Source of the DNA: a virus
Length of the DNA stretch: 43,894 nt
Strand: one strand, 5' to 3'
Virus record (IMG/VR): IMGVR_UViG_3300028920_000125
Coordinates: 1 to 43,894 of that record
Numbering within the stretch: the stretch's first letter is position 1; every line of letters begins with the position of its first letter. The translations under genes were made by a program, and so were the position numbers. Below the pieces are notes generated by a model. That model searched no databases, was not told the DNA's origin, and was given only the letters and a program-made list of their open reading frames with translations. This document shows, piece after piece, positions 901-43,894 of the stretch.

Positions 901-964
901 AAATACGCCAAAAAAGAGCAGAACGCCCTTGAAATGTACCTCGAAATGGCGTATATTGTAGGTA
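901..964 (+). promoter_or_regulatory. Early promoter copy 1 with inverted operator half-sites; +1 on the start codon
   Basis: TTGAAA (929-934), a spacer of exactly 17 bases, and TATATT (952-957), then six bases and the ATG at 964. With the usual spacing, +1 is the A of that ATG, so the message would be leaderless. The half-site ATACGCCA (903-910) is repeated inverted as TGGCGTAT (947-954), overlapping the -10, as expected for a repressor or activator operator. The same arrangement recurs at 7614-7676. Confidence 0.8.
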
Positions 965-1356
965 TGGAAAGAGCAACCACAACTTGCGAGCCGACCGACG
1001 ACGGAGTGAATGTCGTCGGAAATGAAGTGCTCGCCGCGATGAGCCGCGGCGGTCATCCGACCGTGCCACGACAGGTCAAGGTGTTTTTCTTCGAAACCGA
1101 CGACGGTTTCGAAAAGGGATGCTGCGACGTCGTGGGAAACAGCGCGGTTATTCGTGTGAGTACCCGCAATGGCGATGGTTCTGCAATGGCGACGTCGCAC
1201 ATTGTCGAATTTCTTGCCCACGAACTGTGTCACGCGTTCGATGGGCTAGAATTTGATTTTTCCGCACAGTACGCGGAACGCCGCCAGGAAAAACTGGCTC
1301 GTCGCATCGGCGCGAAGGTTGCGAGAAGGTTTCGCAGAAAACGATTCACACTCTAG
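964..1356 (+). CDS. HExxH putative zinc metallopeptidase-like protein, first early gene
   Basis: This 130-residue protein has the zinc-binding signature HELCH at residues 86-90 in the context HIVEFLAHELCHAFD, the classic metallopeptidase helix, and a very basic C-terminus (RRFRRKR). The two His residues would bind zinc and the Glu would activate water. A third ligand is not obvious; Glu or His residues downstream (AQYAERRQEK) are candidates. The frame extends upstream to 934, but ATG 964 is chosen because the promoter's predicted +1 falls on it and because its first codons (MER-TTT) match the gene behind the second promoter copy at 7676. No Shine-Dalgarno sequence precedes it. As the first-transcribed gene it may act on a host protein; that is inference. 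Confidence 0.75.
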   Translation: MERATTTCEPTDDGVNVVGNEVLAAMSRGGHPTVPRQVKVFFFETDDGFEKGCCDVVGNSAVIRVSTRNGDGSAMATSHIVEFLAHELCHAFDGLEFDFSAQYAERRQEKLARRIGAKVARRFRRKRFTL

Positions 1357-2983: not shown

Positions 2984-3136
2984 ATGAGGAAAAGGCAAGT
3001 CCACGCGTCAATCGACGAAGAAACCAAAGCCAAGCTCAAAAAGCTGGCAAAACGTGAGAACCGGAGCTTATCTGGCCAGCTTCGCCATCTCATCAAGCGT
3101 GCGCTGATGGCCGTCAGCGAGTCAAAAGGAGAGTAG
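2984..3136 (+). CDS. Ribbon-helix-helix (CopG/Arc-type) DNA-binding protein
   Basis: This 50-residue gene is preceded by AGAGGT. The protein begins with a short basic strand (RKRQVHASI), then helix one (DEETKAKLKKLAKREN), the turn RSLSG, and helix two (QLRHLIKRALMAV), the layout of a minimal ribbon-helix-helix dimer in which the strand reads the DNA. Such proteins repress phage or plasmid promoters. Plausible targets are the inverted half-sites at the two early promoters or the perfect palindromes at 15480-15493 and 24020-24036, but target assignment is inference. It is flanked by unknown small genes in the same operon. Confidence 0.75.
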   Translation: MRKRQVHASIDEETKAKLKKLAKRENRSLSGQLRHLIKRALMAVSESKGE

Positions 3137-4346: not shown

Positions 4347-4973
4347 ATGGTCAACCTAGAACACTGGAACGCACTATGCAGACCGCCGGAAGGCGCGTTG
4401 AAACAGATCAAGGGCGGCAGGCTCAAGGGCATGACCGACATCAACCCCCAATGGCGCTACAAGGTAATGACCGAGCACTTTGGGCCGGTCGGCATTGGCT
4501 GGGCGTTCGAGATCGTGCGGACTTGGTGCGAAGGCGCTACGGACGAAGTATGCGCCTTTGCTGAGATCAAGCTCTTCATCAAGCACGACGGCGAGTGGTC
4601 GCAACCTATTCCTGGAATGGGGGGCTCAAAGCTACTGGCCCAGGAAACCAACGGGCGACACGTATCGGATGAGTGCTTCAAGATGGCTGTCACCGACGCG
4701 TTGAGCGTAGCGATGAAGACGGTCGGCGTTGCTGCTGACATCTATGCAGGCTTCTTCGACGGCTCAAAGTACACAGTTGCCCCGCCCAACGAACAGCATC
4801 AGCAACAGCAGCAACAGCAGCCGGACCCTAAGCAGGATGATGCGGCGTTCAAGGCGGCGGAGAAGCTGCTGAGCGCCAAACAGCAGGCACTGGCCCCAGA
4901 GCAGTTGGACTGGTGCATCGCAAATATCCAGCAATTCCCGCAGGACGTAATCGACTACCTCAACAAATTCTAG
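4347..4973 (+). CDS. Rad52-superfamily single-strand annealing protein (phage recombinase)
   Basis: This 208-residue protein has an N-terminal region typical of phage Rad52-like annealing proteins: LKQIKGGRLKGMTDINPQWR, then HFGPVGIGWAFEIV, a beta-strand block with FAEIKLFIK, and SDECFKMAVTDALSVAMKTV with VGVAADIYAG. These proteins form rings on single-stranded DNA and anneal complementary strands during phage recombination and replication. A Gln-rich linker (HQQQQQQQP) separates the core from a short helical tail (residues ~165-208). It starts at ATG 4347 behind AGGAGAG. NinB-like and SSB-like neighbours support the role. Confidence 0.8.
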   Translation: MVNLEHWNALCRPPEGALKQIKGGRLKGMTDINPQWRYKVMTEHFGPVGIGWAFEIVRTWCEGATDEVCAFAEIKLFIKHDGEWSQPIPGMGGSKLLAQETNGRHVSDECFKMAVTDALSVAMKTVGVAADIYAGFFDGSKYTVAPPNEQHQQQQQQQPDPKQDDAAFKAAEKLLSAKQQALAPEQLDWCIANIQQFPQDVIDYLNKF

Positions 4974-7313: not shown

Positions 7314-7612
7314 TCACACGCCTGACCCAAAAGCAACGCTCAGCCAAGCGCCGACTGAAAGACAACGAAATGTCGCGCAAATGCAGAGACCGGGCCGACG
7401 GCTACTGTGAGCGCTGCTGTGAATATTGCCCGTACAGGGGCGCTGCTCATCACGACTACCGCCGAAACAACTACCCACACCTGCGCCACGAGCTGGCAAA
7501 CCTTACCTGGCTGTGCGTAGAATGCCACCGCGCCGTCCACGCCCAGGTAGAAATGGGCCACGAAGACATGCGCGCCATCCGGATAGAGCGCGGCGACTCA
7601 AAATATTTGTAA
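7310..7612 (+). CDS. HNH-type zinc endonuclease-like protein
   Basis: This 100-residue protein has a basic N-terminus (TQKQRSAKRRLKDNEMSRKC), CERC and CEYC pairs, then AHHDYRRNNYPHLRHELANL and CVECHRAVH. Paired His, an Asn in the middle and a terminal CxxCH...H match the HNH (beta-beta-alpha metal) core. HNH proteins nick or cut DNA in packaging, homing or restriction. It overlaps the methyltransferase by 4 bases (ATGA), so a methylase/nuclease pair is conceivable, but small HNH proteins near recombination genes are common. A leaderless promoter follows immediately. Confidence 0.75.
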   Translation: MITRLTQKQRSAKRRLKDNEMSRKCRDRADGYCERCCEYCPYRGAAHHDYRRNNYPHLRHELANLTWLCVECHRAVHAQVEMGHEDMRAIRIERGDSKYL

Positions 7613-7613
7613 A

Positions 7614-7676
7614 ATACGCCAAAATACGCCAAAACAGCCCTTGAAATGTACTCTGAAATGGCGTATATTTATAGTA
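7614..7676 (+). promoter_or_regulatory. Early promoter copy 2 with duplicated operator half-site; +1 on the start codon
   Basis: TTGAAA (7641-7646), a 17-base spacer, and TATATT (7664-7669), then six bases and ATG 7676, exactly the geometry of copy 1 at 929-964. Half-site ATACGCCA occurs twice in tandem (7614-7621, 7624-7631) and inverted as TGGCGTAT (7659-7666), overlapping the -10. The core GCCCTTGAAATGTAC and the first coding bases ATGGAAAGA are conserved between copies. Confidence 0.8.
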
Positions 7677-7936
7677 TGGAAAGAAACACCACAACCCAAG
7701 CGGAGAGAGAAAAGATGGTAACGAAAGAAATGCAGGCTTACATGACTGAGATCGTCAAAGAGCGCGGAATCACGCAGGAAACGTTCACCAAGGAAGTTTG
7801 CGGCGACGTCATGAAAGAGGCTGTCCGCCGGATGGACCGCGCAATCAGCCGGGCCAAACAGTCTGAGACGTTTTATCACAACTTTACTAGCGTGCTTTAT
7901 CTGAAGATTGTGGCTCGCGCTGCACTGAACGCCTAA
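7676..7936 (+). CDS. Helical hypothetical protein, first gene of second early operon (leaderless start, internal start possible)
   Basis: From ATG 7676 this gives an 86-residue protein beginning MERNTTTQ, matching the MERATTT start of the HExxH gene at 964. A second in-frame ATG at 7715 follows GGAGAGAGAAAAG, a good Shine-Dalgarno, so both a leaderless and a leadered start are possible; the short form is 73 residues. The body is helical and charged (EMQAYMTEIVKERGITQETF, EAVRRMDRAISRAKQS). No DNA-binding or enzyme motif is certain. It opens the second early operon. Confidence 0.65.
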   Translation: MERNTTTQAEREKMVTKEMQAYMTEIVKERGITQETFTKEVCGDVMKEAVRRMDRAISRAKQSETFYHNFTSVLYLKIVARAALNA

Positions 7937-10706: not shown

Positions 10707-10780
10707 AAGACACCTGCCCATCTTGCGGCGCTCAAAGGTTTGAAGGGAATCCCCAACCATCAGGAGAGACAGGAGAGTAA
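10703..10780 (+). CDS. 25-residue single-zinc-knuckle peptide ending in a translated ribosome-binding module
   Basis: ATG 10703 overlaps the previous stop (ATGA). The product is MKDTCPSCGAQRFEG plus NPQPSGETGE, with one CxxC. Its last ten codons are the CCCAACCATCAGGAGAG leader repeat itself, so the module is both coding and ribosome binding site for the next gene. It may be a truncated zinc-ribbon gene left by recombination at that repeat. Confidence 0.45.
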   Translation: MKDTCPSCGAQRFEGNPQPSGETGE

Positions 10781-10783
10781 CGA

Positions 10784-11017
10784 ATGACAGCAGAGCAATG
10801 GAACAAACGGTACCAGGTCGGCATGGATGTTGCGTACATCCCAATAATAGGCGAAGAATCCTACGTGCTCACAAAAACCAAATCAAGTGCGTGGGAGCTG
10901 GCCCCAGGCCAAGCAGTGGTTATGATCGAGGCAACGGCTTACTGTGTGAGCCTTGACAACCTTGTGACGGATGACGATTTGAACCCCTACCAGGAGAGTA
11001 ACGATGAAAGCCTGTAA
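10784..11017 (+). CDS. Small protein, paralogue A of a tandem pair
   Basis: This 77-residue protein's N-terminal ~60 residues align with the gene at 11225: AEQWN-RY-VG-DV-Y-PI-G in both, then Y-VL/I-KT-S-AWELxxGxxVV-IE. The tail NPYQESNDESL is the translation of the leader module that precedes the next gene. Beta-rich, function unknown. Duplication with an intervening zinc-ribbon gene indicates recent rearrangement. Confidence 0.65.
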   Translation: MTAEQWNKRYQVGMDVAYIPIIGEESYVLTKTKSSAWELAPGQAVVMIEATAYCVSLDNLVTDDDLNPYQESNDESL

Positions 11018-11228
11018 CACCTGCAACGGCACGATGGACCTGATCATGGAAGGCGAGTGCGGGAACTGGTATGACACCGTGTATTGGTGCCCCCATTGCG
11101 GCACGATGAGGACGTCTCGCACAGACGGATATGCCGAGAGAAAAGTCCAATATCAGACGCCGGCAACCCTATCAGAAGCCTTGAAAGTACCCGGAAGTAA
11201 CCCCAACCACCAGGAGAGTAACGAATGA
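11004..11228 (+). CDS. Small zinc-ribbon protein
   Basis: This 74-residue protein has two CxxC pairs (CNTC, CPHC) about 25 residues apart with aromatic residues between (NWYDTVYW), a standard zinc ribbon. Its C-terminal tail SNPNHQESNE again reads the leader module of the next gene. It overlaps paralogue A by 14 bases and paralogue B by 4. Possible adaptor or nucleic-acid-binding protein. Confidence 0.65.
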   Translation: MKACNTCNGTMDLIMEGECGNWYDTVYWCPHCGTMRTSRTDGYAERKVQYQTPATLSEALKVPGSNPNHQESNE

Positions 11229-11425
11229 ACGCAGAGCAATGGAATGAAAGGTACCCAGTCGGCACAGACGTGATCTATTACCCAATCGCCGGACGCAAAT
11301 ATCCCTACGTGATCGCAAAGACCCGATCAAAGGCGTGGGAGCTGGGTTCAGGTCATCCAGTCGTCAAAATCGAAGGAAAGCCGGGCGGCGTCAGTCTAAG
11401 ACACATTGAAATCACCAGGAAGTAA
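11225..11425 (+). CDS. Small protein, paralogue B of a tandem pair
   Basis: This 66-residue protein (MNAEQWNERYPVGTDVIYYP...) is clearly related to the product of 10784-11017 along its first ~60 residues. Its end overlaps the promoter at 11406-11433, so this gene closes the second early operon while the next unit starts inside it. Function unknown. Confidence 0.65.
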   Translation: MNAEQWNERYPVGTDVIYYPIAGRKYPYVIAKTRSKAWELGSGHPVVKIEGKPGGVSLRHIEITRK

Positions 11426-19356: not shown

Positions 19357-21274
19357 ACGGTCAACGTGGAAGACAAACATTCGCTACCGCTTCGGCATTG
19401 ACGAGGCGGTAGACGATGACGTCCGGCGCGTGTTCACGAGGGCCGACGACCGGCTGAAATCGTATGTGCCGGCAAACATTGTTGATTGGGTGCAGGAGAA
19501 CTACACGCCGGATTGGTCAGACGAGCCGATCCAGCTCGAACCCTACCAGATAGAGCCGATGCAGGCACAGGTAACGCCTGGCGTCGAAGAAGTGATAATC
19601 GTCGGGCCGGAGCGGTTCGGAAAGTCGACAATTCCCAGATGCGGCATGCTGTACAAGATGGTCTTCCATCGAGGGCCAAAACTGATCATCTACGAGGAGA
19701 AGAACAAGGCCGCAAGCATCAACATGCGCGAATTTCATCCAGCGGTGTTGAGCGTCCCGGAGCTGCGGCGGCAGATCGAGGGCAAGTGGAAGGCACGGGC
19801 CAAATCGTACGACCTGAAAAGCTGCACGGTCGACTTTACCGGCGCTGGGGCAGATATTACGTCAACCTCGGCGCGCGACGTGTGGGCAGACGAGTATGAC
19901 ACGTGGCCGTTAGTCGATGAAAAACGTCGCGCGCAGATGCAGAACGTCCGCAAGCGTATGAGGCTATGGCGCAACCGCGGCGAGGGCTCGCTCGTGATCT
20001 GTTCGTCCGCGAAAGGAACGGAAGACGACTCGTCTATTTGGCTGGAATACGCGCCAATGCGCGACGGCGACAACCTGATTCCGCAATCGTCCATGGGCCT
20101 ATGGCATCTACGCTGCCAGGGCTGCGGGGAATTGATCGACTCGACACAGATCGACGGTGTCTATGACAAGCAAAAATCAGAATTCCGCGGGGGTCTGCAT
20201 TGGGAGAAGAACGGGCAAATCATCATTGAGGAATCTATCCGGCTCGTGTGCAGGCATTGCAAGCATGAGCACAAACAGCACGAATCCGCAAAGATGAACG
20301 CCGAGGGCGAATACGTCCACGCCTACCCGGAACTTGTTGGAAGGCGTCCCGGATATCTGTTTGGCTCGCTGTCATCGTTGCGGGCGCTGTCCTGGCTACA
20401 GATCGCCGAAGCTCGCCGGAGTGCTGCACATGACAAATCGTTTGAGACGCAGCGGACGTTCCACAACTCATTCCGGGGCGTGGCCATGCCGTTGGGCGAC
20501 GCGTTGCGCCAGGCAGACAAGCAGGCGCTGATGCAGCATTGTCGACCGGTTGCGATTACGGCAGACGAAATCATGGCAGTCATCGCAGCGGCGGACACGC
20601 AGGAATCTCCATGGGGCTGGTTCTGGATTGTCCGGGCGATCGATAAGGATTGGAACACTCACCTACTCGCCGTAGGATTTGCACCGTCGAAGGCGCAGAT
20701 TGAAGAAGTGCTCTGCAACGCGCGTTATCACGGGCGGCCGGTGGACTATGCAATTATCGACCAGGGCGGAACCAATGCCGACGACGTCAAGGCACTGGCA
20801 GAAGCGCACAGCAATATCTACCAGTACAAAGGCTCGTCTAATCCAAGATCGCTGTGGCATTGGTCGAAAAGCTCAGATCAATGCAAGCTTCTCATGTGCG
20901 ACGCGTCGCGCCTTCAGGTCATGCTTCTTCGGAGTCTCTACGATCAGGCAGAGACCAAAGAAAACCATTACATGTTTTTGCCCCCAGCGACCGACGTGCC
21001 GAGCGATGACGATCCGGTCTATGACTATCTTACGCACGTTGTCGCGGTGCGCGACCTTGCGAACGGCGTCCATTCACATCTCCGCCAGAATTGGACTTGC
21101 GGCGGCCGGGAGAGGCGCGACTTTTTCGACGCGGAGAAGATGATTCAAGTTTTGCCGTTGGTGTTCCAGCGGGAGATCCAAAACATGATCGACAACGGCG
21201 GCCAGCGGAAGCCGGTCAAGCTTTCCGAAGTCCAAGCCGCCAAACGCGCACAGCAGAGGAGAACAGGGCCATGA
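19346..21274 (+). CDS. Terminase large subunit, lambda GpA family
   Basis: This 642-residue protein matches GpA-type size and layout. The ATPase part has Walker A GPERFGKST (residues 87-95) and a Walker B-like DVWADE (178-183), followed by a motor coupling region (CSSAKGTEDD). A zinc-binding insert (CQGCG ... CRHCKHEH, ~254-312) is usual for this family. The C-terminal nuclease part contains the acidic strand YAIIDQGG near residue 470. The enzyme packages concatemeric DNA into the prohead and cuts it; lambda relatives make cohesive ends. The short matching ends of this contig would suit such cutting but do not prove it. Confidence 0.9.
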   Translation: MNAKRSTWKTNIRYRFGIDEAVDDDVRRVFTRADDRLKSYVPANIVDWVQENYTPDWSDEPIQLEPYQIEPMQAQVTPGVEEVIIVGPERFGKSTIPRCGMLYKMVFHRGPKLIIYEEKNKAASINMREFHPAVLSVPELRRQIEGKWKARAKSYDLKSCTVDFTGAGADITSTSARDVWADEYDTWPLVDEKRRAQMQNVRKRMRLWRNRGEGSLVICSSAKGTEDDSSIWLEYAPMRDGDNLIPQSSMGLWHLRCQGCGELIDSTQIDGVYDKQKSEFRGGLHWEKNGQIIIEESIRLVCRHCKHEHKQHESAKMNAEGEYVHAYPELVGRRPGYLFGSLSSLRALSWLQIAEARRSAAHDKSFETQRTFHNSFRGVAMPLGDALRQADKQALMQHCRPVAITADEIMAVIAAADTQESPWGWFWIVRAIDKDWNTHLLAVGFAPSKAQIEEVLCNARYHGRPVDYAIIDQGGTNADDVKALAEAHSNIYQYKGSSNPRSLWHWSKSSDQCKLLMCDASRLQVMLLRSLYDQAETKENHYMFLPPATDVPSDDDPVYDYLTHVVAVRDLANGVHSHLRQNWTCGGRERRDFFDAEKMIQVLPLVFQREIQNMIDNGGQRKPVKLSEVQAAKRAQQRRTGP

Positions 21275-21942
21275 ATCGCGAGCGGCAAAAAAAAATCACC
21301 GAGCTGAAAAAACAAATACACCAGGAATGTATGGAAATCGAAGAAGCGGCAAAAGCGGACATTGCAGAAATACGCGAGGATGCACGCCGTAAAAAGGCGG
21401 TTTTGCAGCGCCGCGTCACGCAGCTACGGCGAAAAATGGAAAAGGAAGATGCCGTAGAGCGAGCTATAGAACAAGCAACTGCCAGCGGGGCAAGGTGGGG
21501 CATAAGTGGCGGCGTGCGGCATCTTGTCAGGGGGAAACGGGCGGGGGCAAATTACGAATACTATACAGCATGCGGCAAACGGTATTATCGTTCGATAGTA
21601 GCAAGTTATGCCTCAGAAGCGATTGTGTGCAAAGACTGCTTACGCGTGGCAAAAGTCAAAGGCTGGCGGGAAGCGTGGCAGGACAAAACGGAGGGCATCC
21701 CAGATTACCTTTGGGATTGGCACGTTGAAGAGTTGGACGATATTAGCGATTGGGCAGTCGCCAAACGCGCAATAGGAGCGATGGGCGAACGATGCCAACG
21801 TGTAATAAAAATGCGATGGGGGCTTGAAGGTCAGCCAAGAAGTTTGCTTGAAATTGCGTCAGAAATAGGCGTCAGCACCAGCCGCGCGTGGCAAATCTAC
21901 CAGAACGTGCTAAAGCAGTTGTCCAAAACGCTGGAGGTCTGA
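21271..21942 (+). CDS. Sigma region 4-like HTH protein with coiled coil and zinc ribbon, candidate late regulator
   Basis: This 223-residue protein has a coiled coil at residues 1-70 (ITELKKQIHQECMEIEEAAK), a zinc-ribbon-like part at 84-123 (H84, CGK at 101, CKDC at 120-123) and, at 168-222, a segment matching sigma70 region 4: RCQRVIKMRWGLEG, then LLEIASEIGVSTSRAWQIYQ. Region 4 contacts the -35 element. Regions 2 and 3 are absent, so it is not a complete sigma factor; an activator that works with host polymerase, or an ArpU-like late regulator, is more likely. ATG 21271 overlaps the TerL stop. It precedes the late promoter by 2 kb. Confidence 0.7.
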   Translation: MNRERQKKITELKKQIHQECMEIEEAAKADIAEIREDARRKKAVLQRRVTQLRRKMEKEDAVERAIEQATASGARWGISGGVRHLVRGKRAGANYEYYTACGKRYYRSIVASYASEAIVCKDCLRVAKVKGWREAWQDKTEGIPDYLWDWHVEELDDISDWAVAKRAIGAMGERCQRVIKMRWGLEGQPRSLLEIASEIGVSTSRAWQIYQNVLKQLSKTLEV

Positions 21943-23956: not shown

Positions 23957-23978
23957 TTTTGGCTACATATAGCCAAAA
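23957..23978. promoter_or_regulatory. Perfect 9-base-arm palindrome in the late control region
   Basis: TTTTGGCTA (23957-23965), CATA, TAGCCAAAA (23970-23978). It is AT-flanked and lies 25 bases upstream of the late promoter's -35, a normal place for an activator site. No gene covers it. Confidence 0.55.
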
Positions 23979-24002: not shown

Positions 24003-24036
24003 TTGACGTGTCGCGAAATACTGCAAATATTGCAGT
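24003..24036 (+). promoter_or_regulatory. Late promoter with palindrome over the -10; start codon at +1
   Basis: TTGACG (24003-24008), a 17-base spacer, and AATATT (24026-24031), with ATG 24037 five bases beyond. The palindrome ACTGCAA-ATA-TTGCAGT (24020-24036) covers the -10 and touches the start codon. No Shine-Dalgarno precedes ATG 24037, so a leaderless or one-base-leader message is indicated. Confidence 0.7.
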
Positions 24037-24267
24037 ATGCCTACAGCAGCAACAATGATTAGCGCGATCGATACAGCGATCTATGAGATCACTGTCAAAA
24101 AGGCCGAAAGCTGGGAAATCGGCGACACGCGTTATACTGCGTTAGATCTGGACCACTTGCGTCGGCTACGCAATGAGTATCTGCAGGAAAAGGCATCTAC
24201 CGATGCGACCGCCAGCAATAACGCACCGTTTGGCATCACAGGCCTATCAGCAGGGAGCGGGAAATGA
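24037..24267 (+). CDS. gpW-like head-tail joining protein
   Basis: This 76-residue protein has an N-terminal helix (SAIDTAIYEITVKKAESWEI), the hairpin GDTRYTALDLDHLRRLRNEY, and a disordered Ser/Thr/Ala tail. Helix, beta-hairpin (with the Y-T-ALDL pattern) and second helix is the fold and signature of lambda gpW and related DUF6148-type proteins. In lambda, W lies between terminase A and portal B, and here the gene directly precedes the portal, overlapping it by 4 bases. gpW binds the portal after packaging so that tails can attach. It is the first gene of the late operon. Confidence 0.75.
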   Translation: MPTAATMISAIDTAIYEITVKKAESWEIGDTRYTALDLDHLRRLRNEYLQEKASTDATASNNAPFGITGLSAGSGK

Positions 24268-43877: not shown

Positions 43878-43894
43878 ATGCGGACAACCGGAAG
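43878..43894 (+). CDS. 5' end of the membrane protein gene that continues at the left edge
   Basis: ATG 43878 lies seven bases after AAGAGGT. Its first codons ATG CGG ACA ACC GGA AG join in frame to the 54-512 gene once one copy of the 12-base terminal repeat is removed (MRTTGSSENVKIWVPLYGT, then the residue at 54). Without collapsing the repeat the frame does not match, which supports a shared end or circular join. Confidence 0.65.
43883..43894 (+). repeat. 12-base right-end copy of the left end
   Basis: GACAACCGGAAG at 43883-43894 is identical to positions 2-13; position 1 (T) does not match the corresponding base (G). Either an assembly overlap of a circular or circularly permuted genome, or the trace of a short cohesive end. 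Confidence 0.7.

Follow-up and report, generated by a model that had tools for sequence, protein, structure and literature searches.

The window analysed here, a viral DNA of 43,894 nucleotides (IMG/VR record IMGVR_UViG_3300028920_000125), carries two near-identical promoter-like sites on its + strand, each running almost directly into an ATG. In copy 1, the -35 element TTGAAA (929-934), detected by both pattern search and a sigma70 scan, is followed after 17 nt by the -10 element TATATT (952-957), and the ATG at 964 opens gene 1 (964-1356, + strand). This gene encodes a 130 a.a. protein with a HELCH motif, a putative zinc metallopeptidase, which had no significant match in Pfam or PHROG, no match in the PDB and no confident family. 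In copy 2, the same elements were found in the same way at 7641-7646 and, 17 nt further, at 7664-7669, and the ATG at 7676 lies in the frame of gene 2, for which no family match was obtained. The unit behind copy 1 contains NinB, an exonuclease/recombination-family protein, a RusA-like resolvase, a DNA methyltransferase and an HNH nuclease. Copy 2 follows directly after the HNH gene, and its run leads to a replication initiator and a DnaC-like loader. Because of this gene order, with recombination first and then genes toward replication, we infer that both units are early.

Just upstream of copy 1, after small genes, lies an intrinsic terminator (855-892, + strand) with an 8-bp stem, GCCTCCCG/CGGGAGGC, and a T run (-17.2 kcal/mol, z -4.1); from their size and position, the small genes would be lysis genes. 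Within 808-892, a promoter-like sequence, TTGCAA-17-TATAGT (12.5 bits, with TG before the -10), was also found ahead of this terminator, which follows its predicted start within ~15 nt. This site would give an RNA of ~50 nt, or would be an attenuated or antiterminated promoter. The last 12 bases of the window (43883-43894) repeat bases 2-13, and the frame 54-512 reads through the joined ends to ATGCGGACAACC, indicating that the genome is probably complete, as a circle or a circular permutation. Elsewhere, two small genes 441 nt apart (10770-10845 and 11211-11286) are duplicated, with 78% identity over 76 nt at their starts, and an ORF after the terminase gene (21091-21942) encodes a C-terminal sigma70 region 4 domain (Pfam PF04545, E 3e-7), a possible late regulator.

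Direct reading of the window showed that six nucleotides separate the -10 from the ATG in both copies, GTAGGT before 964 and TATAGT before 7676, the whole promoter-to-ATG spans being 929-966 and 7641-7678. All of the strings described in an earlier sequence-only reading (TTGAAA, 17 bases, TATATT, six bases, ATG) were thus present as claimed, by window reading and by pattern search, and the conservation it reported into the first codons was also borne out, the ATG being followed by ATGGAAAGAnnnACCACAAC in both copies. A 44-nt promoter-ATG pattern with three mismatches allowed matched exactly twice in the window and not at all in 100 shuffles. The TTGAAA-17-TATATT arrangement has 10 of the 12 consensus bases, with a spacing inside the 16-18 nt range of sigma70, and the two copies outscored every other sigma70-like site on the + strand, with 15.9 bits each by a weight matrix of our own approximate E. 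coli frequencies. They are very likely promoters. From the geometry, transcription is predicted to start most likely on the A of the ATG in both copies, with an uncertainty of 1-2 nt, so a leader of 1-2 nt is possible. Being paralogous DNA, the two copies amount to a single observation. A sigma54 site was considered and set aside (TGGC present, GC element absent), as was a promoter for a phage-encoded RNA polymerase, since the PHROG matches of the scanned proteins included no gene of this kind.

At the predicted +1, Shine-Dalgarno (SD) pairing is weak: the SD energy is -1.5 kcal/mol at 964 and likewise at 7676, and the median for the best starts of 68 ORFs is -6.6 kcal/mol. An SD precedes most of the phage's other genes, and this includes further genes of these early units. 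The earlier claim that copy 1 lacks an SD-led start further downstream in frame holds for canonical SDs, as GTG 1006 and ATG 1039 have none, but needs qualification at GTG 1063, also in frame in gene 1, which reaches -6.2 kcal/mol, only via a non-canonical GGCGGU stretch. The segment 964-1062 carries a coding signal in the gene 1 frame that only 0.5% of off-frame windows exceed, the coding score near the start being modest; translation is therefore likely to start before the weak 1063 candidate. The lack of a canonical SD downstream, combined with this coding signal, suggests that translation of gene 1 most likely begins at 964, the predicted +1, and we consider a leaderless start likely for this gene, at about two in three. 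In the predicted RNA fold, AUG 964 is unpaired. The A+C content of codons 2-7 is 0.78 and 0.89 in the two copies versus a mean of 0.63, and CA repeats downstream of the start codon have been reported to enhance leaderless translation (PMC9031893).

Copy 2 has a further start. The ATG at its predicted +1 opens a 13-codon in-frame extension (7676-7714, + strand), which can equally be read as a 39-nt 5' leader with an SD, and ATG 7715, in frame with 7676 and 39 nt downstream, is preceded by an SD typical of the phage (GGAGAGAG, -6.6 kcal/mol), from which gene 2 (7715-7936, + strand) would be translated. This start was omitted from the sequence-only reading. Since an SD-led ATG lies 39 nt into the transcript, leaderless initiation is unneeded at copy 2, and the shared ATG may be kept there only as initially transcribed DNA. 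Copy 2 thus looks like a promoter of the usual leadered kind whose 5' AUG is optional, a leaderless start being possible there but not required. The idea that the two operons form a leaderless pair is consequently sustained for copy 1, with coding from 964 and no canonical SD in an SD-dominated genome, but not for copy 2, with its SD-led ATG 7715.

A somewhat unlikely but serious alternative is that both copies are ordinary leadered promoters, with the ATG at +1 arising only because the initially transcribed sequence is conserved, gene 2 read from 7715 and gene 1 from a weak internal start at 1039 or 1063. Gene 1 would then perhaps be coupled to a 10-codon leader ORF (ATG 1010, stop TGA 1040) or controlled by a hairpin, CCGACGAC-GGAGUGAAU-GUCGUCGG (995-1019, + strand, -14.8 kcal/mol, z -3.7), which begins at ~+32 within the gene and has GGAGUGAAU as its loop, where the GGAG near the start sits. 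The short ORF (1010-1042) lies beside this hairpin, and its stop overlaps the in-frame ATG 1039. The strong hairpin in an RNA that is more structured than shuffles across 964-1050 (z -2.85), the typical SD of ATG 7715 and the SD energy at GTG 1063 are all consistent with such a leadered arrangement. However, GGAG is only 3 nt from ATG 1010, tighter than the usual spacing in this phage, ATG 1039 is without an SD and the match at 1063 is not a purine-rich one; moreover, 964-1062 scores as coding, and both ATGs share the reading frame of the gene that follows.

The similarity of the two copies extends over 59 nt (925-983 and 7637-7695, 83% identity), and an A-rich AAAATACGCC region upstream is also common to both. 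The differences fall into three clusters, located in the middle of the spacer, just downstream of the -10 (four bases) and in codon 4. The four bases after the -10 all differ (GTAG vs TATA) with the gap length unchanged, and there is an indel further upstream. In a comparison of codons -13 to +6 in the frame of the ATG, 15 were identical, four differed nonsynonymously and one synonymously, pointing to constraint on the DNA, not on the protein.

The block also contains operator-like boxes, all on the + strand, which were absent from the sequence-only reading. In copy 1, TGGCGTATATT overlaps the -10 (947-957) and AAAATACGCCA, inverted relative to it, lies upstream (900-910), the two 11-nt arms being 91% complementary. 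In copy 2, TGGCGTATATT again overlaps the -10 (7659-7669), and two tandem 10-bp boxes, AAAATACGCC AAAATACGCC A, are located upstream (7611-7631). The 8-mer TGGCGTAT overlaps the -10 at 947-954 and 7659-7666, and its inverse lies upstream, with a single occurrence in copy 1 (903-910) and two in copy 2 (7614 and 7624, an exact 10-bp spacing); in total it was found eight times versus 1.24 expected, with five of the eight inside the two blocks. Their position over the -10 suggests that the boxes are sites for a regulator, of the phage or the host. An Arc/CopG-like ribbon-helix-helix protein encoded in operon 1 (2984-3136, + strand) is a candidate binder of the TGGCGTAT boxes, by kind only. Conserved as DNA and not as protein, the block is probably a duplicated early promoter cassette under regulation.

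It is very unlikely that the block is instead conserved coding sequence, from two proteins sharing an N-terminal segment that starts at ATG 934/7646 or upstream. Both copies do read KYAK..ALEMYxEMAYIxxMERxTTT in frame. No stop interrupts this frame, which scores as coding over 901-963 and 7613-7675, and one alignment makes the 9-nt difference between the upstream boxes an in-frame one. Nevertheless, there is no ATG, GTG or TTG before 934/7646 in either copy and no SD at these positions (-2.1 and +1.2 kcal/mol), a stop TAA (7610) lies just upstream of copy 2, and the block encloses a near-consensus sigma70 site with a 17-nt spacer. Shared coding sequence is also disfavoured by the codon-by-codon comparison, since 15 base-identical codons and a ratio of four nonsynonymous to one synonymous difference reflect a DNA-level constraint.

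The sigma70 scan revealed a third site with the same geometry, TTGACG-17-AATATT-5-ATG(24037), at 24003-24039 on the + strand. Its promoter sequence is unrelated to copies 1 and 2 and weaker (AATATT, 5-nt gap), and a perfect 9+3+9 palindrome of 21 bp, ATACTGCAA-ATA-TTGCAGTAT (24018-24038), overlaps it. The gene at 24037-24267 has no SD (+1.4 kcal/mol) and precedes the portal gene; like 964 and 7676, it has AUG as the start codon. A 9-bp hairpin, TTTTGGCTA/TAGCCAAAA, is located before this site at 23957-23978. Counting only ATGs that open a frame of at least 60 codons, an ATG lies 5-7 nt after the -10 in three of the nine + strand sites scoring at least 11 bits (964, 7676 and 24037), and in none of the minus strand sites. 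When the promoter track was slid against the ATG track, 0.21 such cases were expected, giving P(>=3) = 0.001, or P(>=2) = 0.014 when the duplicate pair is treated as one site, although the three-site statistic is post hoc and the null does not allow for the general placement of promoters ahead of genes. Since a third promoter also places an ATG at its predicted +1, a one-off accident is unlikely.

Leaderless initiation, which bypasses the usual ribosome-binding signal, is uncommon, but leaderless phage messages are already known, and it is plausible that this phage is a further example rather than a new mechanism. The lambda cI message from PRM is leaderless, as is that of PaaR2 from an E. coli O157:H7 cryptic prophage, demonstrated by 5' RACE and N-terminal sequencing (PMC8630535). 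The present sites resemble these in having a phage sigma70 promoter, a +1 on the A of the start codon (predicted here) and operator boxes around the promoter (operator-like here). In contrast, the known cases encode repressors, whereas here a HELCH-motif gene 1 and an unassigned gene 2 head early operons, neither of them matching a DNA-binding repressor as first gene in the manner of lambda PRM-cI (gene 1 having no Pfam/PHROG match and gene 2 none); in addition, copy 2 retains an SD start, and the +1 is predicted from sequence. Most middle and late messages of the Thermus phage phiYS40 are leaderless (PMC3594737). As in that genome, several genes of our phage would have leaderless messages, but there would be only 1-3 such sites, including two at early genes, in a phage that is otherwise SD-led. 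Leaderless (TA-led) genes are widespread in some bacterial phyla (PMC3160421), and ORFs adjacent to the -10 occur in Deinococcus-Thermus (PMC12340547). As in those genes, only a short gap separates the -10 from the start codon here, agreeing with the TA-led distance of ~10 bp (gaps of 6 nt in both copies and 5 nt at 24037), and copy 1 likewise has no canonical SD, unlike copy 2 with its SD-led ATG 7715; however, the published genes belong to hosts from groups rich in leaderless genes, often having a TAnnnT box, whereas a strong -35 and an operator-like box over the -10 are also present here. That both copies are leaderless by design, with 5'-AUG recognition keeping early translation going when SD-led initiation is blocked, is very unlikely, as the geometry kept in both copies and at 24037 and the phiYS40 precedent (PMC3594737) are offset by the SD start 39 nt downstream in copy 2 and by the SD-led majority of the phage genes, through which an SD block would still stop the phage; a deliberate resistance to anti-SD control and the use of 70S ribosomes, earlier proposed as the purpose, are unsupported.

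Searches for the cassette and its first genes in IMG/VR, GTDB species genomes, INPHARED and PLSDB returned no usable relatives. The exact block and relaxed promoter patterns produced five viral and 27 genome matches in IMG/VR and GTDB species genomes, all in pattern only and in non-homologous contexts. As IMG/VR protein queries, gene 1, the head protein, the portal and the terminase retrieved no relatives, leaving gene 1 with no homologue to anchor its N-terminus, and the 4347-4973 protein retrieved two distant loci (L003 and L004), both without the block; INPHARED and PLSDB yielded only structural proteins with 20-30% identity, or nothing. Two Lentisphaerae contigs matching the relaxed pattern (L027 3449-3477 and L032 772-800) show TATATT, five bases and ATG (ATGAACAA...); the gene may belong to a mobile element and start without a leader.

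Taken together, we favour, with a probability of roughly 0.62, a duplicated sigma70-type early cassette in which gene 1 is leaderless, or has a leader of 1-2 nt, and copy 2 is leadered with an optional 5' AUG. The cassette would drive two consecutive early units, the recombination genes from 964 and those toward replication from 7676, and the boxes in each copy (TGGCGTAT over the -10 and inverted AAAATACGCC upstream) are most likely recognised by a regulator from the phage or its host. The most likely transcription start is the A of the ATG. From copy 1, the HELCH-motif protein would then be translated from a message with no leader, or one of 1-2 nt, through recognition of the 5'-terminal AUG, and copy 2 would produce a message with a 39-nt leader and a normal SD for ATG 7715, whose in-frame 5'-terminal AUG could add a form 13 residues longer.

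A broader proposal, which we regard as speculative and unlikely, is that the early programme is opened by leaderless messages from a duplicated, operator-controlled promoter, that the +1-on-ATG arrangement is reused before the head genes and that copy 2 gives two protein forms from one message. If true, this programme would be the reverse of that in phiYS40, where the middle and late messages are leaderless. The favoured reading, if true, would itself add a non-repressor, early-gene case to the few leaderless phage messages. The two copies would also constitute a natural pair, alike in promoter and first codons but differing in whether an SD lies downstream, in which the two modes of initiation could be compared.
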